Positions 27,788 through 53,003 of a DNA stretch of 64,000 nucleotides are shown piece by piece. Position numbers and translations under genes: made by a program. The stretch comes from Daedaleopsis sinensis (Eukaryota; Basidiomycota; Agaricomycetes; Polyporales; Polyporaceae), in contig CM066301.1 in the NCBI GenBank assembly GCA_033807695.1, positions 4,340,001 through 4,404,000 on the forward strand. Direction: 5' to 3'. Every line of letters begins with the position of its first letter. Position 1 is the first letter of the stretch. The notes under the pieces were generated by a model. It was not told the origin of the DNA. It saw only the letters and a list, made by a program, of their open reading frames with translations, and did no database searches.

Positions 27788-30700
27788 ATGCCAGACGTGG
27801 GCACTGCCACTCTCGACCAGAAGGACCCCACCAAGTGTCCGACGATCAAGAACGGCACCCTCGACCCCGAACTCCTACAGAGCTGGGTCGACATGGCTGA
27901 AGGATATTTCCTTCACAAGAACGTCGACGACGACCCCGGGAAACGTGCCAAGCTCGTCGCTTGCGGTTTCCAAGACCCCATCTTGAAGGCTTGGTGGCGC
28001 ACAAACGTCCTCTCCGATCTGCAGACTAAGACCTGGGACGACTTCGTACAAGACATGTACGACCAGTGGTTACCGGTCGGCTGGGACTCTGATCTCTACG
28101 CCGACATCCTCCGACTCGTCATGACCGAAGACCAGTCCTTCGAAGACTTCGCTCGCTCATTCGAATTGAAGAACCTACTCCTCGGGCGATCTCTACTGCT
28201 CATGGATGAGTCCACCATTCGCGTTAACATGGTTCCCCGCCTCACTCGTCGTCTCCGCCTCCTCTCTCAGTCCGACGTCTTCACCGGTTTCACCAAATAC
28301 CGCGACTGGAAGGCGGCGCTGATCACGGCGGACCGCGAATACACCACAACGGTGCGAGACATGCGCGCCCAGCTATCCGGTCGCGATCACAAGTTCCGCG
28401 CCGACTCCAACAACAAATCGAATCGCGCTCCCTTCTCCAGCTCGTCCCGATCGAACACCACTACCACACCCGCTCGCTCCTCCTCCGCGCGCGTGCCGCC
28501 CCTCACCGACGCCGAACGCGCCCTGCTCATGGCCAACAAGGGTTGTCTTAAGTGTCGGAGGTTCAACGCCGGCCACTTGCGCGACGCTTGCCCTAACGGC
28601 TTCCCCGACGCGTCTTCTTACCGGACTCTCACCCAAGGCGACGTTGACGCCTCAACTAAGTCTACAACGAACACTGGACCTTCGTCGAAGCCCTCCGGTT
28701 CCTCCTCCCGCAAGACCTTCGCAGCAGTGAACACGTCTACATCTCGCTCACCATCTCCTACGTCGTCGAACGTCGTGCCTGTCGGCGCCGTCTTGGCACA
28801 CTCTGTCAACACCCTCGGCACAGACTCCGACGATGCTATCTGGATCTCAGGGGGTGAGAGCTCAGAGGACGAGTGCGTCATCTCGTCCCCGCAACCTGTC
28901 TGGCTTGCTTCCATCACATCTCCTACCTCCTCGTCCGTTGATGTTGAAGAGATGCTGATGGACACGGGTTCGCCTTCAGTTCTTATTAGACAAGATGTCG
29001 CCAACGCGCACTCACTGCGCAGTCACACGCTACACAAACCTTTCAACTATACCGACGCGTTCGATGGAGTCAACAAGGTTGCGAAGCAGTTCTGTCGATT
29101 CCAGGTCACGGCGAGGGACGGGTCTTACACATCTCGTTCCTGCATCGCGATCATTGTCCCATCACTAGCCTACCCTGTAATTCTTGGCACGACCTTCCTC
29201 GCTGCCAACAATCTCCTCGTCGATGTAGCCAATCATGCCCTTTGGGACACCACATCCGGTCGCGATCTTTTCTCTCGACAACCTCGCCCCCCTCGCCCCA
29301 ATGAGTCTCCAGCTGATCGTCGCCGCCAAGAACGCGAGTACGACGACTTACATCGCCGTCTACACCGCACACGCATCTCCGACGTTAACCGTCAGTTCCT
29401 CGAGACCGCCACACGAACTCCCACCATCTTCGAACAAGTCGATATGCTGCCTGCGCCTTCAACCATCGGTGCAGTACGCACACAAGTCCAACGTCTCGCT
29501 TTCGCTGAGCGACTTTCCGTCCTTGACTCCCGTATGAAAAAGAAGTTCGCTTACCTGTTCCCTGCAGACATACCTCCCACACACCGTCTCCCGGACGACG
29601 TCTTCCACGAGATCCACCTCAAAGACGCCCAGCTTTCCATCGTCCGTCGGACTTACGACTGTCCGAAGAAATACCGTGAAGCGTGGAAGACACTACTCGA
29701 CCAGCACCTCGCTGCCGGTCGCCTTCGTCCATCTTCCTCTCCCTACGCTTCCCCTTCGTTCTTAGTACCGAAAGCTGACCCTACTGCTCTTCCTAGATGG
29801 GTCAACGACTACCGCACCTTGAACGCAAACACCATACCCGACGCTTATCCCCTTCCGAGTATACAAGAAATACTATCGGACTGCGCACGCGGTAAGATCT
29901 GGGGTAAATTAGACATGACTAACTCGTTCTTTCAGACGAAGGTCCACCCCGATCACATCAAATACACCGCGGTCACTACACCCTTCGGGCTCTACGAATG
30001 GACGGTCATGCCCCAAGGATGTCGCAACGCACCTAGCACACACCAGCGGCGCATGTACAACGCCTTACACCCCTTCATCGGCTCTATCTGCCACGTATAC
30101 CTCGATGATATTATCATCTGGTCCTCAGACGTTGACGAACACATCCGTAACGTCAACACCATCTTATCCGCGCTCCAGTCCCATTCCCTATTCTGCTCGC
30201 TTAAAAAGACTTCTCTTTTCTGCACAGAACTTAATTTCCTAGGTCACAACATATCCTTGGACGGCATCCGTCCGGATGGTTCCAAGATCGCCCGCATTCT
30301 CGACTGGCCCGTACCGACCTCTGCACACGACGTCCGGGCTTTCCTCGGATTAGTGCGGTACATCGCCAATTTCCTCCCGAAGCTCGCACACCACACGTCC
30401 GTTCTCAACCCGCTTACCACCAAGGAGGCGGAAAAGAACTTCGAATGGACTTCCGAACACGCTTTCGCGTTCGACGCAGTGAAACGCCTCGTCACCAGTC
30501 ACGAGTGCCTCACCGCGATCGACCACTCGAACCTCAGTAACAACCAGATCTTCGTGTCAACTGACGCGAGCGATTATTGCACAGGTGCTGTGCTCTCTTA
30601 TGGAGAGAGTCTCGAGACCGCTCGCCCTGTCGCCTTCGAATCTGCTCAACTTTCCGGCGCCGAACTCAATTACCCGGTGCACGAAAAGGAACTACTCGCG

Positions 30701-34444: not shown

Positions 34445-36642
34445 TCACGACGACAGGTGAAGCGCGACAAGGAATGTCCGCTGGCATACGGGGCAACGCA
34501 TGTTCGTAGCCAGCTCCTGTATGATGCAGCTAAAACCCACAGTCAACATTCGAACTCACCGTCAGAGGCAACACGAAGTAGAGCATGGACGTACCCCCTG
34601 CAAAAGACGTGTCCACAAATTGTGGTGACAGGCTCGAAGCATGGGTCCTGGAAGCATAGCCTACAGTGGAACGATGTCCGCGGCGCGTCGGTGTTCGTCC
34701 GGTCTAGCTTGGAAGTCAAGCTGCGCCGATGCCCCCGCGGGACGTCCGGTGTACATCCGTGGAGGTGCGAGGCGGTGGCCCGGGCAGCTGCTGGAAGAGA
34801 ATCCGCGCCGGAGTCTGGCAGGGCGCGATCCGAGTCGGCGCCGGGTGAAAGGACACGGTTGTGGCGCGGCGCGCGCTGGTAGTTCGCGTTCAATCACGCA
34901 TACACCAAGCTAGTACGGCTCGACTGTAGGCTCACTATATGCGTGTCATCCGGGTCGGCGGCGACGCTCTCTCCCTCAAAAACGCGGTAGAGTTGCTCAG
35001 CCTGCGCGAAGTTCGCGTGGAGAGTCGAATAGCCCGACTTGTTCGGGCCCGCTTCAGTGTGGGCTCGCACACTGCCCGATGTGCTGTGCGAGTCGGCGTG
35101 AGATTGCGCGTACGGTGATAGGATCAGACACTCACTAGACCCTTCGATCCTGCAGCTTCGCCGGGGTGCTCGCCGGAGTGGTGTATGCAGACGTACCAGG
35201 ATCAGAGGGTACCGAGGTTATGCGGGAGCTGATATCCAACTTGGTGGATGTCGGCGCTATGGACCAGTCGAGGAGGTCGGAGATACTAGCAGTGTCAACA
35301 CGATCGCGAGGAGGCGCGGCCACGAGCCGGACTGCAGGAGAAGAGGCGTCCAGGACTGGCTGATAGCTGGCCGCGCTGACTGGACCCTCGAACGACGCTA
35401 CCGCATAGCTCTGTAGAGGAGATGCGCTGCGGGAGCTGATGTCGAACTTGAAGGATGGCGGCGCTGTGGACGAGACGGGTGGGTCGGAGATACTAGTAGC
35501 GCCAACACGATCGTGAGGAGACGCGGCCGCGAGCCGGACTGCAGGAGAAGAGGTGTCCAGGACTGGTTGATAGCTGGCCGCGCTGACTGAACTCTCGAAC
35601 GAGGCTGTCGCATGGCTCTGTTGACGCTAGCGTGACAGTAAACAATTATTCTGTTATATCCGCGGAAAATATACTTACCGCAGGATCAGCAGATGTGCTA
35701 TTGTAATCCGCTGACGCGCAGTTGGGTGGAGGAAGGGGCATGTCTTCCGTAGGTGCCGGTCGGGTAACCTGACAATCTTTGCGATGCTATACCGAGCAGC
35801 AGTGAGACAGTCTACGTCTGCAGCAGAAATACAAATCCGTGGCTGTTACTCACCGTCGACCATTCGAACAGGGTGTCGAAGCTCGTACTACATGATCTGC
35901 ATGTCGGGTGCATGGGCGACTCGCGGTAGTGATTTTGCAGTGCTTGCGAAGACCAAAGGTGGATGCTGCACCCTTCACAGGTCACAGCATCCGCTACATG
36001 CTGGTGAGGAAGCGAGACGTCAGCGCGGTCGACTCGGAGCTGGGGATGTGGGCGGACCTGGTCTAATTTGGCTGCCGTAGAAAATGCGAGCTTGCATATA
36101 TTGCACGGATGATGTTCTTTGACTGGCTGTGACCTGTCTCAGTCTTCAAGGAAGACAATAGAGCTTTCGAGGTGGGGCGTAAAACTTACTGGGGTGTAGT
36201 CCAGCGCCGGAGCATGTGCGTCTTGTTGATGCTGGATGATAGTGTCGAAACAGTTGGCTAGTGATACATGCACGATGCGACTCACCATAGCAAGAGATTG
36301 CCTACTTCCGAACTGTTCCCGACACCACGTGCAAGTAACGACCTCCGAGATTTTCGAGCTCTCTGTGTTTGACGCTGCCGTAGGGGCGGCCGCAGACGCA
36401 GACCGAGTCACAGGCCTAGAGGTTATCTCGTGCTCTGCTGTAGCTTGGAGAGATATCCCGGAGTGTACATCGGGAGTTTGGGTGTGCGTTTCACATTCCG
36501 TGTAGCTCCAGAACGTAGCGAGACACACAGAGCATAAGTAGCCGGGCTGCCACGAGTGTCCAGTTGCCTGCTGATGCTGCCGGCCAGTTCCCAGTCCGGA
36601 GAGCTCCTCCTTGCATTCGTGGCATCTGACTCTGACATTCAT
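34445..36642 (-). CDS. C2H2-RING paralogue A: N-terminal zinc fingers, linker, C-terminal RING finger
   Basis: Exon 1 (36642-36286) starts MNVRVRCHECKEEL and carries two fingers (CHEC...H-x5-H; CSVC...H). A third finger begins CTWC and is completed in exon 2 (36231-36190) by HQQDAH, so an intron splits it. Later exons hold CNICKLAF...H, then CEGC-x12-H-x6-H followed by HPTCRSC. The linker (about 35135-35634) has two in-frame copies of a 69-residue unit. The RING lies in the last two exons: FHCRLC, CGHVFC, then an intron (34594-34530), then GCIIQEL and CPVCQRTF, ending at the TGA of 34445. C3HC4 RING fingers usually recruit E2 enzymes for ubiquitin transfer. Some middle exon borders are approximate. 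The gene is the downstream end of the minus-strand tandem array. Confidence 0.8.
35221..35634. repeat. 207-bp in-frame tandem duplication in the linker of paralogue A
   Basis: Matching landmarks recur at a 207-bp offset: GGGAGCTGAT at 35224 and 35431, and CGATCG at 35301 and 35508. The period is a multiple of three, and both copies translate on the minus strand to Ser/Pro/Ala-rich units containing AASYQPVLD and SSPAVRL. Confidence 0.85.
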
Positions 36643-37467
36643 CTTCAGCGAGAGCAACAGGGAGTAGTAGATGCGAGGAGGTTGGGAGGGGGGTTGGGGG
36701 GAGGACGGTGGGAGTGGGTCGTCCGAGTCGAAGTGCGGACATTCAAGTTCAAGTTGATTTTGGCATTGGGTTGCTGCAGTGGATTTCACGAAGCGTCTAC
36801 CGGAGTGGCACCGACAGCTCAGCGCTCAGCAGAAAATATTGAAGGCTTCGGCCGCAGATCCGCATGAGGCCTGAGCGCGAGTCTTGGGATATCGGCTGCC
36901 GCAAGCATGCATGCACGCAGTTATTAGGCTAACCAGTGTTCGTAGCAGCATCTCCTGAGGCATACCCAGCTTTCGCTTTCCAGACCGTTCACCAGCTACA
37001 GCAAAATGACTGTATAGTACAGTATGTCCTAGCTTACGAGTGACCGTTCATTTGCATTTCGATCTTGAATTGAAACTGAGGAAGCGGTTGTATGGTGAAC
37101 GAGGTCCAAGAGCTAGATAATGTGATGATGAGGTACCCAGATCTCGGACGTCCGAGTGTTAGACATGTGGAGGCAGTGTAGAAGTTCTCCTAAGCGGTCA
37201 TCTCCAGGCTCCAGCTACTTATAGGATAGTTCATTCCTTCCCACGGTTTCGGCGTGACCCAACTTGGGCCAAGTACTATCGTGTCGAAAAGAATGGGTTT
37301 TGCTGAGTCAAAGTAGTGCCTGGACTCGGGCTCGTCATGTTAATGAGTACTGAGTAATATACGATCGTATACAGAAGAACAGGAGCATTGAAAAGAGGCT
37401 CGATTTAGTCGCCGCATCAGAAAGTACTACTATCCCGGCTCCAAGTCTTACTCCGTAGCCACCACGG
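36643..37467. other. Intergenic stretch between paralogues A and B
   Basis: No gene is recognised. This should hold the promoter of paralogue A (at the left, read leftward) and the 3' end of paralogue B. Confidence 0.45.
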
Positions 37468-39642
37468 TCACAGGCAAGGCCTGGCAACGACGTCCATCTT
37501 GACAAAGAACGGTGTATCGCAAGCGGGGCACCCCGTGATCGTAGTCATTTGACTGACGATACAGCTATAGCAGAAGAGATGGCCGCATGGCACAGTTGTG
37601 ACGGGCTCGGCGGGGTCTTTCAGACACACCCAGCAGTGGAACCTCGACAACTTTGGGGTGGAAGTCGGCGTGCGGCTCCTCTGAACAGGGTCTACTAGCG
37701 TACTCCGGGAGTCATCCGGGCCCAGCTCGACTCGAGGACGATGGGGTACCGATGTCCGAGATGACCGAAGCGGCAGGGTGGCAGACTAGTCATCACATCC
37801 CGTGAGAGTAAGAGTAAGTCAGTGAGTCTCGACGACCGGATATGGACGGTGCAAGTACGCACAGGTGGGGACATGGGCCCTTTCAGAAGTCCGTCAGTGC
37901 GATTCGGGAACGCTTGTACGTCCGAATATGGCGACGGTGTATTCGAGCGACTGGAGGACATTGTACCTTTGTCTAGCATGTGTGTCCCATTTCTGCTCTC
38001 TTCGTTCAATTCAGATACTAAAGTGTCGGAGCCGTGCGTCAATCCGGCTCTACTAGCTCGAGAAAGCGGGGTTGAACTGAACGGAGGAGGCACCGCACGT
38101 CGAGGAGCAGAAGAATCATACAGGGCATGGTCACTGCAGTGGCAGTCGAAAGCTGTTGTCAGTCATGTATATCACGAACTAGTGCAGCAGACTCACGATG
38201 CGGACGCGGACGATTGCTGCAGCCTTGGCGTGTCCGGAGGATATATGGGCGCGGAGGCTGCGCTCGAGGTCGCATACTCGAAGTCGTCCGCCTCAGCATG
38301 TACATTCACATCCGCGTCCGAACCAGAGGAGCCAAAGGTGAGTCTCGTAGCAACAGCGGGAGAGTCCGACCTAGGAGTATGATCTGATTCTTCGACCTTC
38401 TTATCTGAAGTCGATAGAGGGCCGAACTGTCAATGATCAATATCAATTTAGTGGGAACAGTATAATTGAACGTGCATCTTCAATAACTGACCGTCGTTGT
38501 CTCAACTCCTACGGCGCGGCGTTGTTTTGCAGGCACAGTACCTTGGTTCATTTCGTCGTCCCGTTTGAAGGAGCAGCGTGGCCTATGCTAAATAGAAGAT
38601 AATTCAGCTGAAAGCTCTCTCTACATGCTCGACGGGGCACGAAGCTCACTTCCAGGTACTGCACCATCGACTCGAATCCGAGATGGCATGACTTGCACTG
38701 GGGATGTACGATGCTCTGGTTGTAGTGGTCCTGTAGTTCTTCCTCCGTAGAGAAGCAGTAGTCACATCTCTCGCAGTTTAGCAGCGTTGGCGTGAATTCG
38801 ATTGTGGTCTCTTCCTGTAGAGTAGAGATCAGCACGGTGGCTCGGACGGTGAAATGGTAGACGAGGATAACCTCTGGCTCGTAAGTTGTAAGACCCACAG
38901 TACTCGGCTGTGACAGACTCGCGGCCGTTGTAGGACTACTCCAAATCTCCGAGTACAATTCAGTCTATAAAGAACATCATCCTTCTGTACTACTGGCACA
39001 GCCGTCGATACGACAACGATATTGCTTCACTCACCTGTAATTCCTGACTATTATCCGCAGACAATCTTGCGGTAGAGTAGTCGGGCTCTGGCTGTTTGAT
39101 ACGAGGTCAGCAACTCCTAAGTCACCAGTGTGGCAGGATAAGTCACCTACTTCGATGATATCATCTCCGTGTGACCAGAACTCGAAGCAGAGGTCGCAGA
39201 TCTGTTTCTGCGGTTCTACATTGCCAGCTCCGGAATCGCTAGTATCAGAACATCGGATCTCTGTACTGCAGATTGTACAGAGGAAGGTATTGCTATGGGC
39301 GGTAGAAGTGCCCTGCTAGTAAAGGCAGTCAGCGAACACCATTAGCAAACAATTATATTGAGCTATACATGATGATACATCGGAGTCGCATAGAATGAAC
39401 CGGATGGGATACTGATGGAACGGAGCGAGGAAGTAATGCGCACGTACCCCACGCATGTGGTTTGTGAGCTCGATGTGTGCTTGTAGATGTCTCTGCCGGA
39501 GGAAGGTCATTTTGCAGATGGTACAGAAGTACGCAGGCTTGTGAGCGTGTCCAGTTTCCCTTGCGTGTGCCTTGCAGCCGTCCATTGTGGTGTATACCTC
39601 GCTGCACTCATGGCATTTTCCCGGGAGATTCGGTTTGGCCAT
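37468..39642 (-). CDS. C2H2-RING paralogue B: zinc fingers, linker, C-terminal RING finger
   Basis: The gene starts MAKPNLPGKCHECSEVY at the ATG of 39642. Exon 1 holds two fingers (CHEC-x12-H-x5-H; CTIC-x12-H). A long intron follows, then a Cys-rich exon (FLCTICST, QKQICDLCFEFW) and a finger CERC-x12-H-x6-H followed by HPQCKSC, the module shared with A, C and E. Ser/Pro-rich linker exons lie near 38340-38190 and 38093-37850. The last exon runs from about 37786 to the stop at 37468 and contains the RING (FHCWVC, CGHLFCYSC, CPAC). Unlike A, C, D, E and F, this RING is not interrupted by an intron, and its tail is different (KMDVVARPCL). Middle exon borders are approximate. Confidence 0.78.
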
Positions 39643-39938
39643 GATGAGTAGGACGAGGGATGAGGAGTGAAGGTGAAGGTGAAGGTGCGCAGAGTCGCCG
39701 TGTGCGCGGCGCATGCACGACTGCAGTTCTACCGCAGCACGTACAGGAACTCTCACGCGAGCCTATTCGGCATCGACGCGCAGCACAAACTAAAAGATGC
39801 ATAGACATCACGGTTCATAGTGCAGGTGCAGCAGCCATGGAGAAGGTTCCGTGCTAAAAGTCAACCGCAGTAACGCAACCAGAGAATTGTGGATTACCAA
39901 AGTTCCTTGCAAAATATCGAGAAGCATGGGGTAGCAGG

Positions 39939-41832
39939 TTAGATATGCAGTTTCACCAAAAACACCTTCTGGCACACGGGACAACACATGCCGGTGGCGA
40001 TCCCTTGGACGATGCAGCTGCGGTAATGTTATGAGAAGCATCTCGTCTGATGACCAACTTTTAGTACCAACCTATGGCAGAACAGGTGACCGCACATGGT
40101 CGTCACAGGCTCGACTGGGGCGCGCGAGCACGAGCGACAGAGGAACGACGTCGCGGGCACTCTAGCAGAGTCTTCTTGCCTGTCGCTGGTATGAGGAGGT
40201 ACAGGCCGAGGGAACGGACCACGATTAGACAGCTGGAAAAGCATCGCGATCCGAGCAAGGCCATACATAGTGAGTTTGCATGATAGGACGAGATATAGAT
40301 ACGAGGGAGTACGCACGGGATTTGGACGACTTTGCGGGACACTCTGCGAGGAAGACACATTGCGTTCCCTTCCCAATACTACATGATCTGGAAGGTCTCT
40401 CCCATTTTGCTGTATGGAGTCTGATCGCGGCGGATGGGAGTAGTGTGTAGAACCGAGAGATAAACCGGACCCAGCGGTTCGACTGCTCTCGATGACACTC
40501 CCATCGTGTACTCCGCTGTCGTCGGAGATTAGTTGACAGTCCGCTGCTACATGGTCATTTATGTATGCTCACTGCAACGGCGTCATAGGTAAGGCCAGCG
40601 ATGAGCCGAAGCTGTTGTGACCAGCGAGAGACGTCTTTGTCACAGACGATATTGGCTTCATATCCGGTGACGCGATCTTAGCCCCGGGGAGCGTATCATT
40701 GTGCGGGATGTGTGAGTATCATTAGCTTTCAGTGTAGAAAAAGAATCTTACAACTTCTTCAGGAGCGGGATCTCCGCGAGTCTGAACAGGACACGACGGT
40801 GTAAGGTGACTCCTGTCAGACGGAGGACTGTGGTTCACCTGGCTCAACGATTCATATCAATCACACTTGGCCGTGCTGATAGGAGTAGACTGACCGTCGA
40901 CGAGCCTGCCAGGTGTCGCACACTCGTCGCATGTCCATTTGTATCTGGCACGAGGTCGTACGTCGCCGTAAGAGCACAAAGCACCTCGTGCTAGCGACAT
41001 CCACGCTATCGGTCACTCGGACTACGGTGGGGAGCTGGCTTGGAGTACGCACCTCAGCAAATGCGAATACCGTCTCAAAGCTTCGGGAGCAAGTGCCGCA
41101 GGTCGGATGATTCGGACTTTCTTTATAGTGTACCTGACGCGCCTCTTCTGTTTCAAACGCTCGTTCGCATTTCTTGCAAGCGTAGATGAGAGGCTGTTAC
41201 TGGAAGCGTCAGCGAGATTCGCGTGATCGTCGCACTCCGGGTGCAAAAAGCATAAATCACCTTGCGCTCTGGTCTGACTACGACTGGAATTGAAGGGCTC
41301 GCCGGCTGCCACAAGGCGGAAGAGGGCACTAGCCGTTGCTTCGAAGGAGATGTAACTTGAAGCGGCTGCCTTGAGTATAGGGACGAGCTCACATGGGACT
41401 GACTCCAAGTTGCGTCACTGGCGTGACCTTCCTTACAATGCTGGGTGCATCTATCAGTGTGCGGTAGAGGGAAAGAGTAAAGCGACTCACTGCATCATAT
41501 GCTGCGGTACCCAGGAAAATTCGATTCGGACTGCAGACGAAGCATGCAACAAACTAGAAAAGTTTACAGCGTTCGATCTGAGCGAGTAGTAGTGCAAATA
41601 TTGAAGTACTCACTCTCCCATCCTCTTGAGGAGGGAAATACCTAATGCCATTGAGCATGTGGCCTGTAGCGGCCTTGTGGGCCTTCATCATCTTCTTCGT
41701 GCTGAAGACGCCGGCACAATCGGCGCAGACAGATGAAGGTTGAGAAATATGTCCTGTCGCGCTTCCATGTTTCCTGCATTGTGCCTTGCTCTTGAACACT
41801 TCCTGACACTGGTTGCATCTGGCTGGAGGCAT
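39939..41832 (-). CDS. C2H2-RING paralogue C: zinc fingers, linker, C-terminal RING finger
   Basis: Exon 1 (41832-41614) starts MPPARCNQCQEVF with two fingers (CNQC-x12-H-x5-H; CADC-x12-H-x5-H). Exon 2 (41553-41491, 63 nt) carries CFVCSPNRIFLGTAAYD, and exon 3 (41440-41261) opens with HCKEGH, together making a third finger with spacing C-x2-C-x14-H-x4-H. A fourth finger (CKKC-x12-H-x6-H, then HPTCGTC) follows. The RING (FLCRSC, CGHLFC, intron, SCIVQGI, CCPVCQKVF) ends at the TAA of 39939-39941. The region 40400-41050 between finger 4 and RING contains linker exons I could not resolve. The RING half is clearly the same family as D, E and F. Confidence 0.78.
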
Positions 41833-42378
41833 CTGATTTCAGTGTGTGTGGTGGGAGATGGAAGGATGTGCAAGAGAGGTTGAAACGTCAAGGCCGCCAT
41901 ACAGTTACCGAGAAGCACCGGCCCGTCTGTGTACGTAATCCTTCCTTCCCAACCGGGGCTGCTAGCGCTCATCGACATCCTTCAAGTACTGTGCCACAGA
42001 GGGCTGCCAGATCCCATTTTAGAACCAACGCTCGGGCACGCTGCCCACTCGGTGGGCGCGCGGAAGTTCAAGCTAAAGTGCAAGTTGCTGCAGCCCCCGA
42101 CGAGGAGAGTTGTGGTCCGGGGCGAGTCGGGAAGAGGGGGCCGCCGCCGCCGGATGGCAAGGAGACTTTTGGCGTACGCGTGGTGGTTACAGGTAGTACT
42201 GAAAATAGTAGTAGTAGTAGCACCCGCTACATGAGCTTTGGCCAACAAGCACTGTAGTGTACTGTTGTATATCCAGTTCATCTCTTCGTGCCTAGCTGGA
42301 GATGTGTGATGAATAGTACTAATAGAGCGTTGTGCCGACCGCCTTCCGTTGTGTCTACTAACTATTACAGTGCGACAT

Positions 42379-43555
42379 TTAAACGTGCAGTCTGATTAGG
42401 AACATCTTCTGGCACACGGGGCAGAACATCTTGGTCTCGATCTCGCGGACGATACAGCTATTGCAACATGGCACTCGTCAGCGTTACTTCCTGCCTCCAC
42501 GCCGATTCCGGAACTAGCGACGTACCTCTGACAGAAGAGGTGGCCACACATCGTAGTGACGGGGCTCACGGGGTCACGGAGGCAGGAGCGGCAGTGAAAC
42601 GACCCCCTGCCAGTATCCGTAGAACGCGCAGCCGATCTCCCGTTCGGCACTGTACCACTCCGAGAGAGACTCGGCCAGGGAGAGCCGCTATGCTGTCTCC
42701 CGTGTGCTACATTGCCTAGAAGGTGCGTTCGCCCATCGAGTTCTACTGATTCCGACCGCAGCGGGTTGAACCCGTGGCGTGCGGATTTTGCTCTAGACTC
42801 GAAGTTGGAACCAGAGCCTGAGGGGCGACTCGGAGCGGTCTCGATGATACTTCCTTCAAGCACACTAGAATTCAATATGGGTTAATCAGAGTCTCCGAAA
42901 GCATAACACACACGCCCACTATATATCACTACTCACTCAGGCACTGTGGTCATGACCTCGCTCAGTGGTGTGATTGAGGAGAGCTCATCGGACACTGAGT
43001 TGGAGCTGTCGACGGGGACTACGACTGAAACCTGAGGATCCACCGGCTGTCGCAAGGACATGGTAGAGGAGGATTGCTGTTGAAGAGATCCTTGCACTGT
43101 CGGAAGAGGCTGTGGCATCTCGGATGATCGGGATCCTGAGTAGGTGTGTATCGCGCCATAATGCTGCCATGAACTAGTCAACTAATCTGGGTCATCTCGA
43201 ACTGACAGCACGCAGTCACTGACCAAGTCATAGGCTGCAGCACCGAGAAACGTCCGAGTGGGCTTGCAGATGACGCAGGTATCGAACTAGTAAGACGTGA
43301 GTACTTCAATTCCCATTAGGAGTGCGAGCTCACCATTTCAGCTGCGGCCTGAAGAGTGACTTCAACTATGTGGCCTGTGTCCATGCGATGTTCGTATTGC
43401 GCGTAGCTTGTAGTGAAAACCTCGCTGCACTCCGTGCAGAAATATGAAGGGGAATAGTCGTGCCCAGTTTCTTCCACGTGTCTCGATCCTTCCTTTTCGC
43501 CATCGAAAACCTCTTTGCATTCATTGCATCTTGCTGCTATACGCAGTCGCCGCAT
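42379..43555 (-). CDS. C2H2-RING paralogue D, complete five-exon model
   Basis: Exons 43555-43334, 43286-43224, 43163-42937, 42864-42526 and 42457-42379 join in phase to give 309 residues. Fingers 1 and 2 (CNEC-x12-H-x5-H; CTEC-x12-H-x5-H) are in exon 1. Exon 2 is 63 nt (FDTCVICKPTRTF...), and HYGAIH at the start of exon 3 completes finger 3 (C-x2-C-x14-H-x4-H). The linker is Ser/Gln/Pro-rich. The RING is C3HC4: HCRSC-x11-CGHLFC, then an intron inside the second Cys pair (CQ/SC), then FCPVCQKMF. It lacks the fourth finger module of A, B, C and E. Paralogue F shows the same exon order and near-identical RING and finger 1-3 residues. Likely an E3 ubiquitin ligase; the target is unknown. Confidence 0.88.
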
Positions 43556-44085
43556 GTCTATGTAGAGCCTGGTTAAGTGGAGTGTGACTCGGAGCTAGTG
43601 CCAGTTGACTGCTGACACTGACGGTAGTGCTATAAGTACCAGTGTAGGATGACTTGAACCAGTCCAAGCGACTCCTTACGTACGGACTACCGCAGCACAG
43701 TGGACGTGGGCATGCTTCAATTCTCTCGTTCCCCAGCCTCGCGCCTTGCTCGTGCTCCTTCATTTGTCGTGCCGCCTGTTGTGTTCGCTACCTGTCATTG
43801 ACTGGAAGTTACCCCGTATAGCATATCTTATAGTTACTGCGTGCAAACCATACATGAGAAGTCCGAGTCGAGGAGCGGTAAGTATGGATGGACAAAGTTC
43901 GTCGATTCACCAATGGACCAGTGACAGGAACATCATGTTCACCAAGACCCACTACTAAGCAGCGGGGATCTGCAGGTTCGTGCAGTGCAGGCAGTCATTA
44001 CATGAGCTCCTTAGGGGACTCAACACTCCATGCTCGTATCGAGCGTCGGGTAGGTCATCAGCCTTCAAGCTTCAAGCTTCAAACT

Positions 44086-46118
44086 TCAAGCTTCAAGGTC
44101 TAGTCTCACTAGGAACACCTTTTGGCAGACGGGGCAGCACATCCGTGTAGCAATCTCCTGGATGATACAGCTATCACAAGGGAATGATGAGCGATCAGCC
44201 CACCCACGTAGGCACGAAGCGGAAATGCACCTGTGACAGAAGAGGTGGCCGCACATGGTCGTGACGGGCTCGACAGGATCGTTCAGGCACGAGCGGCAGT
44301 GGAACGACATGCCGCTTGAAGCAGACGGCGCGGCGGCCCTGGCGGCTCTAGCGGCCCTTGCTGGCGCGCGGGCCTGCATAGGTGCGGCCGCCTGGACAGT
44401 CGGAGCCCGCTGAGGCGTGTATCTCTGAGGCGGAGGGGACGCTGTCCGAGCCTAAGGGCAGAGTAGAATCAAGTCAGTGCGAATGCTGTCACGGTGCTCA
44501 GGCGTATACGTACGGGCGCCGGCATTGGGTTACCGTAAGTAGAGGTTGACCATCCGGAGGGCGAGTGGTTGCGCTCTGTCGCCCTCCCGTTCACAGCCTG
44601 CCCCGAACGCACGGGCTGGGGCTCAGGCGCGGGAGCCTCGACGCGCTGGCCTTGGAGCGCGCGGGTAGAGGTAGACCATCCGGAGGGCGAGTGATCGCGC
44701 TCCATCGCCCTCCTGTTCACAGCCTGCCACGAACGGACCGGCGCGGACGCGGACTCAGGAGCCTCGACGCGCTGGCCTTGGAGCGCGCGGTAGACCCTCT
44801 CAGCTTCCACGTAGTCCGGTCCGTACACAGATGACAAGGTCGACTGAGATCGCGAAAGGACGTGGGACGCCGCCGGTCGAGCTCGCGCGCCCGCGAGACC
44901 GTTCGCAGGACTGCCAGCGAGGCCTGTCGGGCGTTCGATCGGCGTCGATCGCGAATGTGCTGCTGTCGGGATCGTTGCACGGTTCGAGACGACGGATGCT
45001 ACTTCAGAGAAGCCGGTGCTCTGGCGTCCTAAGGGCACCTGGGACATCGACGGCTGTGTGGTGGCTCCCACCGTGTCAGGCTCTTCGCTGGGAGCGCCTG
45101 CGGAGGCTGTCGCAGCAACGCTGCTCGAGTCGTGGTTGCTCGCCTGTGTCTAAGATGAACTGAACATAAGCGACGCAGTGCAGACTGAAAGGGACTGACC
45201 GCCACCGGTTCGTCCTTCTGATTTGCAGGGACTCCGTTGGTAGTGTAGGTCCCTGGCGGAGGACATCCCTTCTTGTGCTAAGCGCGAGCATCAGACTCAC
45301 ACCCGCGACATGCTGAAGTGAAGACAACCTACCGTGACGTACGAAACGATCGATTCGAAACCGAGGCCGCAGGTCCGGCAGTGCGGATGGACAAGACTCT
45401 CGTTGAAGTGTGTCTGGAGCGCAGACTCTGTAGGAAAGTCGTATTTGCACTTTGTGCAGTGGTTTGCGGCCGTGCTAGCGGCCGCTGGCGGCGCTGCGAT
45501 TGGTTGAGCGGGGGTTGGGGTAGCAGCGGGACTATGCGATGCTGTCTAATCACGTACACGCCCGCGTGAGCCTCCAAAACGACTAGGAGTCAGTAAGATC
45601 GACAAACCGGAGTCGCCATCGTATGGACTGCCTTTTGGTGCTGTAAGGAGGTATGCGGTGAGTGTTTCGTCGAGCAAGAACCAAAGGGTGTGCTCACATC
45701 GGCGAGTGCTGCAGCATCCTTGTAGATCTGATTCGGGGTGCACGAGAAGCAGGTCACGGCCTAAGAGGCGTGACATGATTACCTCATCTGTTGCTCTTCC
45801 GCGACTCAATCGTACCTTTGAGTTTGCGGCCGGGGCGGCCGCGAGACTCGGCCTTGTGGCGGCTTTCGGGCTGTAAGAGTTGCTGGCTTTTGGGAGCAGT
45901 TTCGCGGGAATCGAGGGAACCTTATGGCCAGTACTCTGCATATGCGCTAGCCTCTCTGGCCTCTTGTTGAACGCCTCAACGCACCCGGGCTGAGGGCAGT
46001 AGTACGACGGCCTGTGGACGTGGCCCTTCGCGGCTCCATGTTGCCCGCATTCGTAGCTGTCTTGGAAGACCAACTTACACTGATGACACCTTACTGGGAG
46101 CGTATCCGTCGTCGCCAT
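44086..46118 (-). CDS. C2H2-RING paralogue E: zinc fingers, repetitive linker, C-terminal RING finger
   Basis: Exon 1 (46118-45816) starts MATTDTLPVRCHQCKLVF with two fingers (CHQC-x12-H-x5-H; CPQPGC-x12-H-x5-H). Exon 2 (45760-45698) is again 63 nt and carries CFSCTPNQIYKDAAALAD, but the His pair of finger 3 seems lost. Exon 3 (45545-45333) holds CTKC-x12-H-x6-H followed by HPHCRTC. A long linker (about 45149-44520) contains two copies of a 42-residue unit. An Ala/Arg-rich segment precedes the RING (FHCRSC, CGHLFC, intron, SCIIQEI, CCPVCQKVF), which stops at 44086. A small extra exon near 45200-45260 is possible. E is the upstream end of the minus-strand array. Confidence 0.8.
44539..44790. 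repeat. 126-bp in-frame tandem duplication in the linker of paralogue E
   Basis: Units at 44539-44664 and 44665 to about 44790 both begin GTAGAGGT(T/A)GACCATCCGG. On the minus strand each encodes a 42-residue unit containing RALQGQRVEAP and HSPSGWSTST. Confidence 0.88.
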
Positions 46119-46553
46119 GTAGGAGAGGTCCGAGAGGATAGTCGGACGTACGAGACGAGACGGTACGTTTGCAACATGTTCAGGCCGTTGACGCGGAAAT
46201 TTAAAAGCCTTCCAACTACCGCAGCCTGAATGAGCCGCCCATGTCCACGCCACGTACACGAGGTGACGGTCACGGTCACGGTCACACCGCGAGCGATCGT
46301 CAAGACGAGAGCACAAAATCTATGTAAGGATGTGCAAGATACAGCAGCGCGAGATCGCGAGAACAGCACAGAGATAGTATGAAAGCACAATTAACCCCCT
46401 ATATACCCGAATACACACCGTCCAAGTGGATTTCCATGTTTTGTTGGGTCGGCCCCATATCCTGTCACTCGATGCGAGCACGGAGTCAAACGGTCAAGGT
46501 GAAGACAGGCGTGTCCGTGCAGTGGGCAGAGGAACACACTGGACACAATCTAT
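46119..46553. other. Intergenic stretch, nothing recognised
   Basis: This lies between the start of paralogue E and the stop codon of the TLC gene, both on the minus strand. A short GGTCAC repeat is present near 46265-46285 (GGTGACGGTCACGGTCACGG). Confidence 0.4.
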
Positions 46554-48195
46554 TCAGTGTCCCTGGCCGCTTGTAGAGACGACGGAAGCGGTCTCTCCGG
46601 TGGAGTTGCCGTTCGTGGTCGCACTGGCAGCAGCCTGGAGGGGCTTCGCTTCCTGGTCGAACCGCTTGCGGATCGCAAAGATCATCTTGTAGAACCTGAG
46701 AGACGGACACGGTTAAGCGGGAGCCATTCCGCAACGACAACGACAACATGGCTCACCAAATCGCGTTGAGCGAGTTCAACGTGAGATTGCCCGCGTAGAA
46801 CGCGATCAGGTAGGCGAGAGGCAGCTCTTCGCGGGCACCATAGAGCGCTCGCATGAAGTCGATGCTCAGGTACCATCCGTACACGATCCGGATGGAAAAG
46901 AACGTGGCAAGAAGCACGACCCCGTTGATCCACTGGGCCTTACTCCCGGTGTGGCCGGTCTTGTCAAGGAACCTACACAAGGGTATAAGTAGGGGTATGC
47001 GCGGGGTTGCTTATTCAGCAGGATACTGACCGATGGATGTTCAGGAAGATTGTGCTCCTGTGAAACAGTCAGGAAGACACAAAAGTTAGACATTACAGCG
47101 GACGTACGTTTCCCAGGTGAGGAAGCGGGGTGCATAGTAACCGAGGAATGGTCGCTGAGAAACGACAAGTCAGTCACGAAGGCGACGTGATGGTATATCA
47201 ATACTGAGACGCATGCTAGGATGCCTTCGATGCACACAATAGGATGGGATTCTCGGGCAGTCTCGTCTATGGGGACAGCCCAAACAGGGTTACCCATGGG
47301 CGCTAGGGCGCTAGAAAGCGAAAGACGCCGACCAACTCTACGCTCACAGCGATCCGCGTCAAGCGCACCACTCGACCGGTAGATGTTGCAAGGAGACAAC
47401 ACTCTGCGCAGAGGACGATTCTCTACTACTGAGTAGGTCGATTCTCAGCCTGATTATCTGAGCAGAGAAACACAGCGCAAAGCACCCGCAGTAGGAGAAG
47501 TCTCGGTGAATGATTACCAGTTAGGGGTATGTGGAGATATACGCCATGAAGATGAGAAGTCGAGGGTAAAACACTTACGAAGGCCATCATGTAGAGAGTC
47601 AAGCACGATATACCTGATAACAGAGAGCATGAGCGACCGAAGATGGAACGACCAACTATAGCTTCACCGTGGATTAGGAAGCCGACGTCGTCGAAGTTGA
47701 TAGCAGCGTCAAGAGTATCCCAGAGGAAGTAACTTGCAGTCCAGTTCAAACCCACATAGATCCAACGCATGAAACTGAACTCACCCGCAAGCGACAGCGA
47801 CAGTAGTGCCCACCCGATCATCCCAGCCAAAGAGCTTATCGTCCTTGAGCGTCTCAGAGCCGAAGCAGCTGACTGCGAGTGGCAGGACGATGAAGACGTG
47901 CAGGAGCGATACCATTTGGATGTTCCTAGCGCGTATTGAGCCACGCACAGAAGCTAACGTGCGGAAACGCTGCTCACCATTGGTTCACCGCGCGAGGAGA
48001 TCGTAGCTTCGCATAGCTCACGGGGAAGAGGCGAGAGCTGAAGAAGGGCGAGATGTAGAGATGGAGGGCGGTAAACGCGGTAAACGCGTAGAAGAGTGTG
48101 GGGAAGTAGTCCGGGAGGTGGGGAAGATGAAGGATACGACCGACGGGTTGGGCGACGGTGCGGAGGAAGTCGCTGAACGGGAGCTCGAGGGCCAT
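46554..48195 (-). CDS. TLC-domain membrane protein (TMEM56/TLCD4-like)
   Basis: The gene starts MALELPFSDFLRTVAQ at the ATG of 48195 and ends at the TGA of 46554-46556. About eight exons join in phase: exon 1 48195-47978, exon 2 47925-47785, then short exons carrying YFLWDTLDAAINFDDVGFL-IHG, ISCLTLYMMAF, RPFLGYYAPRFLTWE, TSTIFLNIHR, RFLDKTGHTGSKAQ...SLNAIW and a C-terminal WFYKMIFAIRKRF tail. These are the conserved positions of the TRAM-LAG1-CLN8 domain as found in TLCD4-type proteins: His after FLI, a helix-rich body, FLN-x-H, and GN-x-LN-x-LN-x-W. Several hydrophobic segments indicate a polytopic ER-type membrane protein, probably in lipid metabolism or trafficking. It is divergent from the DUF1776 gene and sits inside the C2H2-RING region. 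Confidence 0.85.
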
Positions 48196-48730
48196 GGTGG
48201 ATGGCGATTGGGGCGGGGGGACGTACATGTTGTTTATTAGGTGTCCGATGGCGTCTAGATCGGAAGTAGTGACCGAGAAGTCGTCAAGTCTGTGGGTGAT
48301 CCTAGTCCACGTAACGTCGGCGTGTGAGAGGACGAACGTGCCCGTGCCCGCTGCGCTGATTGCCTCCGACAGTCCCCTGTCCCAGAGCACGACATATCAG
48401 CACTCCTGAGTCCTCCAGACGTCGACAGCAGCGTCGGCGAGTACGAGAACGGCCGCACACACTCACCTCAGTCACCGTCACTGTCGACTCCTGTCGCCGT
48501 CGTCGTGGTAAGCATCCAGCAGGCGGCCTGGCATCTCAAATTCTCTACCGGTGGTGCCAGAGGGGGTCAACGCGATCACGTGCACCACTATTTGTAGAAA
48601 CAGTCCTCGGGGTCCGCTCGGAGCGACGGCACGTCAGACGCCGGAGACGCGTTCTCCGTCGGCTACACCGTGACTTGCCTTCGTCCGCAACGTCCACCAT
48701 CTCGTCCCGTCCACCATCTCGTCGTCCACG
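48196..48730. promoter_or_regulatory. Shared upstream region of two divergent genes
   Basis: The TLC gene starts leftward at 48195 and the DUF1776 gene rightward at 48731, so these 535 bp must hold both promoters. No TATA box or other defined motif was recognised; the right part is pyrimidine-rich, as is common before fungal start codons. Confidence 0.5.
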
Positions 48731-51334
48731 ATGCTCCTCATCCCTACAGTCGAGCAGATTGAAGACTACCTTGAGAGCGTCGAGGAGCTCATCATCTCAT
48801 CCCTCTCTGCCGCTACCCCCGATCTTCCCAAGGTCTCGGAAGCTATCCATCGTCTCTGGCAGGATGTCTTGCGACACAGTCCCCAAGCGGTCCCCGCAAG
48901 CCTCAAGGGTCTAGGAGCGTTCGAGGTACCTCCTCCACCTCCGCCTCCGCCGCCTCCGAAGGGATTCTGGGAGAGCACCGCCGATTGGGTCGCCGATCAT
49001 CCCTGGACGACCGCAGGAATCGGCGTGGGGTGCATCGGTGCTGGGCTACTCGTTGGATACGCACATCCCCGTCTCAGGCATAGGACACGGGTGGGGGCGC
49101 GCAAGCACGCGGCCGCTGCTAACGCGGAGAGGAGACAAGTCGTCGGTGAGTGCGTCCACTTCAGATATCGGACCCAGTAGCGGCCATGAGAGTCTGGACC
49201 CGGAGCAGCGCGGTCGCAGTCTTGCGCTCACTCAGGATCATTAATCTCGCAATAGACCGCTGTAGGCATGTTTCTGTCACGATCTAGGAAGTGGGGAGAG
49301 CGAGTAGATCGTGGCAGATACATGTCCCGGATCATCTAGCGAGGCCTGATGTTGTTACGCTCTACGGTGAGCAACCATCGACCCAGTCTCGTAAGCAACC
49401 ATTGTGGACATGTCATTGCTTCGGTCCAAATCACGCAGGAGAAGAGGCAGACCGAGACAGCGACATGTCCAACAATCTCTGATATAAGCGGGTGGGGTTG
49501 TCACGCTCCACCGTCCCACGACGGGCAAGGAAGTGGTAGGTATCCAACGACCGTCCCACCAGTCTCCCTAGGTAGGGAATAGCGCCTCGCCCGTCGTATC
49601 CGCGCCCTGTACAAGTTGCCAACGGCCAACTCGCATGACATCAATGTCTGATCCCCTGCGCGAGCTCTGTGCTTGTAGCTTGCTGCAAAGCTGCGCATGC
49701 AACCAGGGCTCATCTCTCGGAACGTATCGCAACTCAGACGTACGCTCAATATCTCTAGCTCCCTTTCTTCGAACGTGGCGCGGATGATCCCGCTCGCGTG
49801 TTTGGGCCGCGCCCACGCAGAGAATGGCCTGGCCATCGCTTTGCTTGCGACATCGTGCTATACCGGTTACTCTTGATTGATACTCATGACATTTCACACA
49901 TCCAGTGCTACTCGGAGCAGACTCTCCCCTCGGTCTTCCTCTCGTCCTCGATCTCGAGAAGAAGGGCTACATAGTGATTGCAAGCGTTGCGACTCCTGAG
50001 GCTGTCGAAGAGGTCGAAAGCAAATGCCATGGATACGTTCGTGCTCTCGTGCTCGACCCGACAGAGGTACGCAGGTGTCCTTTATCAGTTTCCGATCCGT
50101 CTCACGTCTGCTTCAGCCAGAGATGATTCCCTTCTTTCTACGTTCCCTCGCCTCGACCATGTCCCGACGCTTCCCTCTCACCGCCGCCGGCGACCCCCAC
50201 GCATCTCCCACGGCTCACCTCTACGTCCATTCTGTTGTCTCCCTCCTGAGCCTACCCTCTTCCAGCGCTGCTCCCCCGCCCGCGCCCCTCGAGCATCTCG
50301 ACCTGCACGGTTCATACCAGGACTACTTGAAAGCGACGCACATCACCCCCCTTCACATACTGCAGGCTCTGCTCCCGCTACTACGTGCGTCCCCCGCCCG
50401 TGCACGCGACTCCCTGTCGAACGGCGTGGGCAAGCAGAGCATCGTGGTATGCCTTCCGGCTACGGATGCGCGCGTCGGGCTGCCGTTCGCGAGTGCACAG
50501 GCAATGAGCGCCGCTGCGACTCTGCGCGGGGTCGAGGTCCTCCGTCGCGAAATTCGCGCGGCGGCGGCGTCAGCGTCTGGCTCCGACACGGCCCTGGCAA
50601 TGCGCAATATCAAAGTCGTCGTCGTCGATGTCGGTGCCGTCGGGCCCGCGGTAGGCGGCGCTATGCGCGAAGGCCTGCGAGACTCGGTTGAAGACTGGAC
50701 CCCCGCGGAGAAGGCAGCGTATGGTGCTGCATTTGGTTCCTTGCTCGAGCACGGCGGTCCGCAGCTCAGGCGAAACCCGAGCGACGTGTCCGTGTTCGTG
50801 GACACGGTCGTGGACGTGGTGAGCAGTGGACGGAAGAGTGAGAAGGGCTGCTCTGCGGTGGCGGCTTCTCTCGGCCTCGGGCGACTGCGCGAGTTCATCC
50901 GCGGAGACCGTGTTGCTGTTGGGGCCGGAGGTACGTTGTTTCTTCCCATAACGTCGGAGATAAATGCTCAATGGCGACTTGCGCGCATGATTCCAGCACA
51001 TACATACGCGATGGCATCGCACCTGCCCTCGCTGCTCTTAGACGCTCTGCTGAACGTCCCTTACCTCATGATCTCCATCCGCAACGCCCTCTTGCCAATC
51101 CCGCCTCGTGTCATCGTACCCCCACCATCCGCTGCGGCCGCAACCCGCCCTCCGCCGCCAGCTCCTGCTGCTGTTGATTCTCAGATGGAGAAGCGGCAGC
51201 AGGAAGGCACCGACAGCGAGCACGAGCACTCGGAGACGGGGAGCGAGGCGGATGTCGAGAGCAACGAGGGCTCCGGTTCTGGAGTCGGTGAATCGTGGGT
51301 GAGCTTGAAGAGTCGGCCGGCGGAGGAGTCCTAA
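48731..51334 (+). CDS. DUF1776 family protein (fungal SDR-like, NAD(P)-binding fold)
   Basis: Four exons join in phase: 48731-49145, 49906-50066, 50117-50930 and 50997-51334, giving 575 residues. The N-terminus (MLLIPTVEQIEDYLESVEEL) leads to a proline run, a WESTADWVADHPW segment and one likely membrane helix (GIGVGCIGAGLLVGYAH). Exon 2 starts the Rossmann-type region: VLLGADSPLGLPLVLDLEKK, with the Gly-rich turn modified to GADSPLG, then GYIVIASVATPE and YVRALVLDPTE. Further family marks are STMSRRFP, APLEHLDLHGSYQDYL and THITPLHILQALLPLLR. The C-terminal tail is acidic. Yeast Ynl181w/Pbr1 belongs to this family and is a membrane-linked oxidoreductase-like protein. The first intron is 760 nt, far longer than any other here. 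Confidence 0.9.
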
Positions 51335-51782
51335 GGGCTATCTTCGCACACCTCGCAAGTTTACGTTTGGATTTCCGATTCGTTACTAGGAGGCTCGGAT
51401 TCTGTGTATCTTTTGTACCATTGCTTGTACCAACAGCTGTGATGTTCATCAAGCCTACGTGTATGTATACATAAATGCCCAGACTCACACACTACTGCAA
51501 CACGAATAGCACTCACCATTCACATGTATGTACCCGTTAAAAACTGGAAGTGTGACAATTACCTCGGGGCTGGGGAAATGGCTTATTACTCCGCTGCGGT
51601 GTGTACGTAAGTCGGCTTGGACCGGAAGGACTGTACTTACTTAAAGTTATTGATTCTTATTGACGTCTACAGCGGAGGCGTGGCATGCACGAGTCGGCGA
51701 AGTTCAAGTTGTCGGCGCAGTCAACTGGCGCCAGCTCATTGCACGAAGTTCCTCTTCACCTTCCACCTAGGACATTTCAAGC
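51335..51782. other. Intergenic stretch before paralogue F
   Basis: The last 80 bp (with GCAGTCAACTGGCGCCAGCTC near 51716) resemble the upstream flank of paralogue D (GCAGTCAACTGGCACTAGCTC on the minus strand near 43610-43590). The duplication of D and F therefore seems to include promoter DNA. Confidence 0.55.
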
Positions 51783-53003
51783 ATGCCCATAACCAGATGC
51801 AATGAATGCAAAGAGGTTTTCGCCAGCAGAAAGCAATGCGCGAGACATGCCAAAGAGACAGGACACGTTCATTCTCCTGCGTACTTCTGCACGGAATGCA
51901 GCGAGGTCTTTAAAACGACCCTCGCACAAGATGAACACTGTACGGCCACAGGCCACATAGTCGAAGTCTCTCTTATGGCCGGGGCTGGAATGGTGAGCTC
52001 CCAGTCGTAGTAATGCCGATTTTGTGGGAACTCAATGAGGCGGCCTCTCGGGGCTCTAGTTTGATACCTGCATCATCTGCAAACCGCGTCGGATATTTCT
52101 CGGTGCTGCAGCCTACGACTTGGTCAGTCCCTGCGTACTGTCAGCTCACAGTGACCCTGACTGACTGACCAGGGCATCAGCATTATCGCGAGATACACGC
52201 CAGCTCAGAGTCCCGATCAACCGAAACGCAACAACCTCTTCCGACACTGGCAGGAGAAGGATCTCTTCAGCAGCAATCCTCCTCGATCTCCTTGCGGCAA
52301 CCGGACCAGGCACAGTCTTTAGTTACCACGGTACTAGTCCCCGTTGACAGCTCTAGTAGCTTGTCTGAGGTCTCCTCAATCACACCTAGCGAGGTTATGA
52401 CCCCAGTGCCTGACTCGTGAGTAGTGATATACCGTGACAGCGGGAGTGTTTGTTATGCTTTGGGGATTATGATTGACCTACTTTGAATCTAGTGTACACG
52501 ATCGAAGTGTCATCGAAACCACTGCTCGCCGCTCGGGTTCCGACTTCGAGTCTCAAGCACAATCTGCATCCCGCGAGTACTACCCACTGCGTCCGGAAAC
52601 AGTAGAGCCCGATGGGCGAACGCACCCGGTTCTAGGCGGCCGCACAGCGCACGGGCGGCGACTTAGCGGTTCCGAGTCTCCCCAATGGCCGAGTCTCGCT
52701 CGAAGTGGTACAGTGCCGAACGGGACACTGGCTCCACGTTCTGCAGCCACCCGGCTATCGTTCCACTGCCGCTCTTGCCTTCGTGCCCCCGTGAGCCCCG
52801 TCACTACGATGTGCGGCCACCTCTTCTGTCAGAGGTAAGTCGCTACTAGTTCCGGAGTCGGTGATGCTGGAGGCAGGAAGTAATGCTGACGAGTGTGTTG
52901 CGATAGTTGTATCGTCCACGAGATCGAGACCAAGATGTGCTGCCCCGTGTGCCAGAAGCCGTTCCTAATCAGACTGCACGTTGACTTGTCCGAGTCGCAG
53001 TAA
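51783..53003 (+). CDS. C2H2-RING paralogue F, inverted copy, complete five-exon model
   Basis: Exons 51783-51992, 52060-52122, 52181-52416, 52493-52834 and 52907-53003 join in phase and give 315 residues. Fingers 1 and 2 (CNEC-x12-H-x5-H; CTEC-x12-H-x5-H) are in exon 1. The 63-nt exon 2 holds CIICKPRRIFLGAAAYDL, and HYREIH opens exon 3, giving finger 3 with spacing C-x2-C-x14-H-x4-H. The linker (residues about 97-258) is Ser/Gln/Pro-rich. The RING starts at Cys262: CRSC-x11-CGHLFCQSC, then CPVCQKPF, with an intron inside the second Cys pair. This gene is on the opposite strand to A-E and is closest to D (about 40 of 44 RING-region residues alike by eye). It lies beyond the TLC and DUF1776 genes, so it is a dispersed, inverted duplicate. 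Confidence 0.9.

Follow-up and report, generated by a model that had tools for sequence, protein, structure and literature searches.

Genes encoding C2H2 zinc-finger arrays with a C-terminal RING in Daedaleopsis sinensis: members of an unnamed family of predicted ubiquitin ligases

A 64,000-nucleotide stretch of the Daedaleopsis sinensis genome (contig CM066301.1, positions 4,340,001 to 4,404,000 of the forward strand; hereafter the window, whose numbering is used unless a contig is named) carries six genes, A to F, each of which encodes an N-terminal array of C2H2 zinc fingers, a Ser/Pro-rich linker and a C3HC4 RING near the C-terminus. Our preferred reading, to which we give a probability of about 0.6, is that A–F are the members in this window of an unnamed mushroom family that ubiquitinates targets bound by its fingers, and that L, a nine-finger gene on another contig (C10), is its conserved member. 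The N-terminal fingers would form the recognition part, for nucleic acid or protein; the long, mostly disordered Ser/Pro-rich linker would serve as a tether; and the C-terminal RING with its short hydrophobic tail would recruit a ubiquitin-loaded ubiquitin-conjugating enzyme (E2), such that the finger-bound target, or something near it, becomes ubiquitinated. L presumably keeps the ancestral job, and A–F together with the further copies G and H–K would be faster-evolving copies in which fingers have been lost, altered or have diverged and the RING has been retained.

Architecture of genes A–F

The genes were modelled by splicing with GT-AG introns of 47-135 nucleotides, the splice sites being placed by eye. 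All six models (window 34445-53003) are free of internal stops and encode proteins of 309-575 amino acids, and their outermost bases equal the limits given for a six-gene finger/RING cluster in the initial annotation, which had been made from the letters of the sequence.

Gene A, 34445..36642, minus strand: 9 exons, 575 amino acids (spliced model); fingers 1-3, one degenerate finger, finger 4, finger 5 (C2HC), linker, RING (exons 34595-34875 and 34445-34529).
Gene B, 37468..39642, minus strand: 9 exons, 528 amino acids (spliced model); fingers 1 and 2, degenerate finger 3, finger 4, finger 5 (C2HC), linker, RING in the single exon 37468-37785.
Gene C, 39939..41832, minus strand: 10 exons, 442 amino acids (spliced model and motif scan); fingers 1-5, linker, RING (exons 40072-40232 and 39939-40017).
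Gene D, 42379..43555, minus strand: 5 exons, 309 amino acids (spliced model and motif scan); fingers 1-3 without fingers 4 and 5, linker, RING (exons 42526-42864 and 42379-42457).
Gene E, 44086..46118, minus strand: 8 exons, 541 amino acids (spliced model and a full-length 63% match to protein P0001); fingers 1-5, linker including an AERVYRALQG segment, RING (exons 44231-44451 and 44086-44170).
Gene F, 51783..53003, plus strand, inverted: 5 exons, 315 amino acids (spliced model); fingers 1-3, linker, RING (exons 52493-52834 and 52907-53003).

Motif scans found finger 1, with the spacing C-x2-C-x12-H-x5-H, and finger 2 in all six proteins, the latter with the variants C-x4-C in E and H-x6-H in A; the two N-terminal fingers first described are thus present throughout. 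The third finger had been described as split by an intron, and this holds for the five genes in which it is well formed (C-x2-C-x14-H-x4-H in C, D, E and F; C-x2-C-x12-H-x4-H in A), where an intron lies directly 5' of its first His; in B it is degenerate, with two CxxC pairs and no histidines. Finger 4 (C-x2-C-x12-H-x6-H) is found in A, B, C and E, as annotated, and runs via HPxC straight into what proved to be a further finger: the HPxCxxC previously placed after finger 4 opens a C2HC finger 5 (C-x2-C-x12-H-x3-C), the His of which comes after an intron in all four genes. These four proteins consequently carry a double finger, CxxC-x12-H-x(4-6)-H-x2-CxxC, before the linker, which is lacking in D and F, where finger 3 is followed directly by the linker. 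Similar back-to-back finger arrays (CxxC...HxxCxxC) lie on contig C4 at ~4336.2-4338.4 kilobases (kb; L056 1181-3393) with no RING motif within the fetched 7 kb, so fingers of this type can occur apart from the RING.

The linker, of 158-313 residues, is 50-58% Ser/Pro/Thr/Ala/Gly, in keeping with its first description as Ser/Pro-rich. Within it, the AERVYRALQG segment of E has a counterpart in A, AEQLYRVFEG, and a loose one in P0002, a second database relative. A C3HC4 RING with all eight zinc ligands was found by motif scan in each of the six proteins, which end 10-16 residues after the last RING Cys, confirming its C-terminal position; five of the six genes have a phase-2 intron within the RING, the RING of B being without this usual intron. 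The tail after the RING fits the hydrophobic pattern [FIML]-x-x-x-[LMV] in all six; an MDM2/IAP-like C-terminal tail was considered and dropped, since the tail of E can also be aligned with the end of the TRIM21 RING, an ordinary one. Pfam scans of the proteins (A, B, E and F) placed E (25.9 bits), F (26.0 bits) and B (34.2 bits) above the PF00097 cut-off of 21 bits, and the RING exon of D passed it at 23.7 bits in the genome search, which indicates that the RING motif of A–F goes beyond chance. The top RING score of A fell slightly short of its cut-off (PF13923, 26.5 versus 27), and the 37 zf-C3HC4 matches of the genome search include B, D, E and F; C is not among them. By sequence, the RING of E is best matched by TRIM21, RNF4, RNF125 and TRAF6.

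Family members and their divergence

Searches with E and its pieces, together with motif scans of fetched stretches, located at least 12 family loci in this genome, A–F, G and H–L; this is a lower bound, the genome search scoring only the best candidates. The six-member array first reported therefore stands within the window, as one part of a larger family.

G, same contig as A–F (C2:4242568 to about 4240690): 485 amino acids, ~132 kb from gene A.
H, I, J, K and L, contig C10: the middle of K is uncertain (it may be two genes), as are parts of H and I.

L encodes 678 amino acids with nine fingers. H (contig C10, ~3167.3-3168.6 kb, minus strand; L049 7300-8600) apparently ends in two successive RINGs, both interrupted by an intron at the position usual in the family.

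In other fungi, fingers and RING are found together in single annotated proteins, which supports one gene rather than two. E is 63% identical over 100% of its length to P0001 (Daedaleopsis nitida, 505 amino acids), with fingers, linker and RING aligning in order, and 31% identical over 98% to P0002 (Cerioporus squamosus, 539 amino acids); these were the only two matches among 7989 scored candidates. L matches 14 database proteins, 13 with polypore names and one from Lactarius: Daedaleopsis nitida (71%), Earliella, Polyporus, Lentinus, Ganoderma, five Trametes and Cubamyces, and, more weakly, Wolfiporia (32% over 52%), Somion (29% over 31%) and Lactarius (28% over 25%; a partial protein). The taxonomy places Daedaleopsis, Wolfiporia and Somion in the Polyporales and Lactarius in the Russulales; the remaining genera we take to be polypores. 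The relatives include C8Q80DRAFT_1271889 and C8Q80DRAFT_753712 of D. nitida, to which E and L align over 100% of their length. An alignment of the 16 proteins (P0001-P0016) has invariant ligands in one finger pair and, for the most part, in the RING, and so has that of the 14 L-type proteins alone. The L-type linker contains an R-x-x-S-E-P segment in 13 of 14 proteins (P0003-P0016; missing in the partial P0016), RAISEP in L, which was not found in A–F and which resembles a 14-3-3 mode-1 site.

Some of these relatives are labelled 'RING-type domain-containing protein' in UniRef and others are hypothetical, with no family name among those listed; nor did the literature, largely without subscription papers, yield a paper naming or describing a C2H2 array with a C-terminal RING. 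In a survey of C2H2 genes of Basidiomycota the genes were gathered by PF00096, and 'ubiquitin' does not occur in the main text (PMC12295980). The initial statement that no named family has this architecture is thus borne out as to the name, but the architecture itself is not new, being already deposited as unnamed proteins of Polyporales and one of Lactarius; on the sequences recovered, the family has no name and is known chiefly from Polyporales. When residues 1-225 of P0001 were used as the query, P0001 was the sole match among 4955 candidates and P0002 was missed; this word-based method overlooks divergent members, so absence of the family elsewhere cannot be read from it.

A tree of RING and finger modules, as the initial annotation had proposed, was built from 28 of 29 RINGs (the partial P0016 being left out) with fingers 4 and 5 where present, and was rooted at the midpoint. 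It groups E with P0001 (support 91), D with F (95) and L with P0003-P0015 (96). D and F, though without the double finger, fall with B, C, E and P0001 at a support of 75; A is not placed with B–F, and the deep nodes are weak (43-65). Pairwise identity among A–F is 50-91% in the RING and 29-66% in fingers 1 and 2, F being closest to D (72% over aligned residues). The alignments support an expanded family in which the RING changes slowly and the fingers faster. More helix than beta positions differ in fingers 1 and 2 of A–F (105/120 versus 28/60, and 110/120 versus 37/60), which is not telling because it is expected of any C2H2 finger.

Selection was examined in five of the 15 possible pairs, of which D/F was the sole fully usable one. 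Its ratio of nonsynonymous to synonymous substitution rates (dN/dS) is 0.35 overall (298 codons), and D/F is under purifying selection overall; by part the ratio is 0.19 in fingers 1 and 2 (62 codons), 0.39 in the linker, 0.26 in the RING and 0.85 in finger 3, this last value being weak (37 codons). No positive or diversifying selection was detected by dN/dS in this pair. For C/E, C/D, C/F and E/F, compared over fingers 1 and 2 and the RING only, dN/dS was 0.06-0.35 where defined, with dS from 0.7 to >2 or undefined, at or near saturation. The dS of D/F is itself uneven (~1.0 in fingers 1 and 2, 0.53 in the linker, 0.22-0.23 in finger 3 and the RING), a pattern that would be consistent with gene conversion over part of its length.

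Between E and F lie 5.7 kb (46119-51782) with at least one long open frame (50000-51334, plus strand), for which a Pfam scan at 1e-3 gave no match; because of this interval F stands outside a strict tandem with A–E. About 1.8 kb past the 3' end of gene A is an open 1826-residue polyprotein of a Ty3/gypsy-type long terminal repeat retrotransposon with a chromodomain (27140-32620, plus strand), and downstream of gene F is a cyclic phosphodiesterase-like frame (CPDase, PF07823; 55450-56064, plus strand).

Predicted RING fold and known ligases

AlphaFold models were examined for P0001, the counterpart of E (16 sequences), and for P0003, the counterpart of L (14 sequences). Their mean predicted local distance difference test (pLDDT) scores of 57.5 and 60.9 are low because the linkers score below 50 (in P0001, for the most part); the finger and RING blocks are mostly at 77-95, falling to 50-85 around finger 3 of P0001. 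The P0001 model has five finger helices, a lone linker helix at 347-359 (the AERVYRALQG segment) and the RING, and the P0003 model has nine fingers and the RING. In Foldseek searches the P0001 RING matched TRAF6-Ubc13 (3hcu; 1.3 A over 47 columns, 40% identity), RNF125 (5dka; 1.3 A over 48 columns, 40% identity) and RNF168 (8x7j; 1.1 A over 43 columns), with E-values of 0.005-0.014 and a probability of 1.00. The RING is thus predicted to have a TRAF6/RNF125-like fold.

In order of parts, A–F resemble the unnamed Polyporales proteins, with a C2H2 array, a Ser/Pro-rich linker and a C-terminal C3HC4 RING; they differ from the nine-finger L-type in having three to five good fingers, a final finger of the C2HC type in A, B, C and E, and a clustered arrangement (among eukaryotes, clusters were looked for in this genome only). 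The RING-UIM ligases RNF114, RNF125, RNF138 and RNF166 likewise combine the RING fold with C2HC and C2H2 fingers in one chain. According to one study of RNF125, its C2HC finger is C-x2-C-x11-H-x3-C, by comparison with C-x2-C-x12-H-x3-C for finger 5 here; the RNF125 finger lies packed against the RING and is required for binding E2 (PMC4944129). In RING-UIM ligases, however, the RING precedes an adjacent C2HC finger, whereas in A–F the RING comes last, 158-313 residues from the nearest finger. Finger 5 is arguably not essential for the RING, since D and F are without it.

The Hel2/ZNF598 ribosome-collision ubiquitin ligases (E3s), which are present in fungi, share a RING and several C2H2 fingers with A–F; theirs is an N-terminal RING followed by fingers, the reverse of the order in all six proteins, and no Hel2/ZNF598 match was named among the matches listed in the Pfam, sequence and Foldseek searches, no dedicated comparison being run. 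TRAF6, among the best E2-bound RING matches of the family both by Foldseek with P0001 and by sequence with E, is also reversed in domain order, its zinc fingers adjoining the RING, and the Pfam scans of A, B, E and F revealed no TRAF domain. The same scans gave no F-box domain. The initial comparison with expanded F-box families is reduced to one of logic: F-box proteins work in a cullin complex, whereas A–F would act alone as single-chain E3s, and the D/F result speaks for constraint. RING, F-box and BTB genes of mushroom-forming fungi, all ubiquitin-related families, are upregulated or conserved in fruiting-body development, according to passages from two papers (PMC12884345, PMC8893723), which in those passages name no C2H2-RING family, nor which RING families are involved or their targets.

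Alternative explanations and significance

The family's E3 activity, predicted from these sequence features, appears likely, and a set of observations weighs against it and against the wider reading. The residue before the second zinc Cys, which we take to be the classical E2 contact (Ile26 in BRCA1, Ile72 in TRAF6 and also an Ile in c-Cbl), is a Ser in C–G as well as in P0002 and an Ala in P0001; of the 14 L-type proteins six have Ser (P0008-P0013, named Trametes and Cubamyces), one Ala and one Met, the others having Ile (four) or Val (two). As a control, 20 of the 33 non-family zf-C3HC4 matches of the same genome were fetched, and all 16 that were readable as C-x2-C...C-x-H-x2-C (the other four were left out) carry Ile, Val or Leu at this position. 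In many active RINGs the last Cys is followed by Arg; here it is followed by Gln in A, C, D, E and F and by Asp in B. None of the fingers of A, B, E or F reaches a Pfam cut-off, and the nine Foldseek matches of P0001 below 0.001 are all zinc-finger arrays, with a large overall root-mean-square deviation (rmsd), the RING not being among them. The initial proposal of a lineage-expanded E3 family with variable recognition modules is upheld for the expansion and for a RING slower than the fingers; ligase activity is not a given, as four of the six proteins have Ser at the E2-contact position, and the label 'ligase' carries a real caveat for C–F.

These residues give some room to a rather unlikely alternative, in which C, D, E and F have non-canonical RINGs that would fold, and perhaps form dimers, yet would bind E2 weakly or favour another E2, acting as scaffolds or as competitors of the more ordinary A, B and L, much as BARD1 pairs with BRCA1 and MDMX with MDM2. 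Such RINGs are well conserved nonetheless, and the Ser contrasts with a hydrophobic residue in A (Leu), B (Val) and H–L (Leu or Ile; Ile in L) as well as in the controls. C–F nevertheless retain all eight zinc ligands and the Pro that separates the last two Cys; the Leu that follows the second Cys is retained in D, E and F. Ser is also no proof of inactivity, being shared by the six Trametes and Cubamyces L-type proteins; together with the Ser of P0002 and the Ala of P0001 this suggests that an active RING of the family may tolerate the change. That the proteins are instead DNA- or RNA-binding regulators, in which the finger array does the main work and the RING helps only in turnover or in binding partners, seems to us unlikely. 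Both profile and Foldseek searches liken the nine-finger array of the P0003 model to DNA-binding arrays, CTCF and ZFP568 among them, and the N-terminal finger of P0003 matches zf-C2H2_jaz, described as double-stranded-RNA-binding (PF12171, 43.3 bits versus 22.6). Any C2H2 array may give such matches, however; only single fingers fit arrays of the CTCF/ZFP568 type, as the rmsd over the aligned arrays is 9.5-25.7 A among the matches listed, and D and F are down to three fingers yet retain the RING.

Two further alternatives concern the genes themselves. Several copies could be decaying, unexpressed relics, as finger losses and degenerations (finger 3 of B, a further finger in A, the missing fingers 4 and 5 of D and F) and the long branches of B, C and G–K in the tree might suggest; six frames open after splicing, conserved RING ligands, the D/F dN/dS of 0.35 and the match of E to a full-length Daedaleopsis protein make this very improbable. 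A wrong joining of finger exons and RING exons from separate neighbouring genes could draw on the placing of introns by eye and on a small exon-finding script trained on the A–F models, which recovered most inner junctions, reproduced none of the six models exactly and was poor on B and C. This script is a weak check because it is circular, homology being the stronger one, and we rejected separate genes as scarcely credible given that all 16 database proteins found carry both parts; moreover each finger block has a RING block after it on its own strand, and intron landmarks recur before the first His of finger 3, before the His of finger 5 and in phase 2 within the RING. A–F look like real coding genes.

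Beyond the preferred reading of a family that ubiquitinates finger-bound targets, a bolder proposal, which we hold to be doubtful, is a single-chain ligase family in which the nine-finger member seeded fast-changing clusters, and in which the Ser of C, D, E and F marks a new E2 preference or built-in antagonists. If true, target choice and catalysis would both diversify by duplication, a fungal counterpart of the TRIM or KRAB-zinc-finger expansions, and any biological role might lie in the expansion being aimed at mobile elements or used in development. The presence in one genome of a defined, unnamed family with both a conserved member and an expanded branch, partly with odd RINGs, makes it straightforward to search for substrates and to test E2 dependence.

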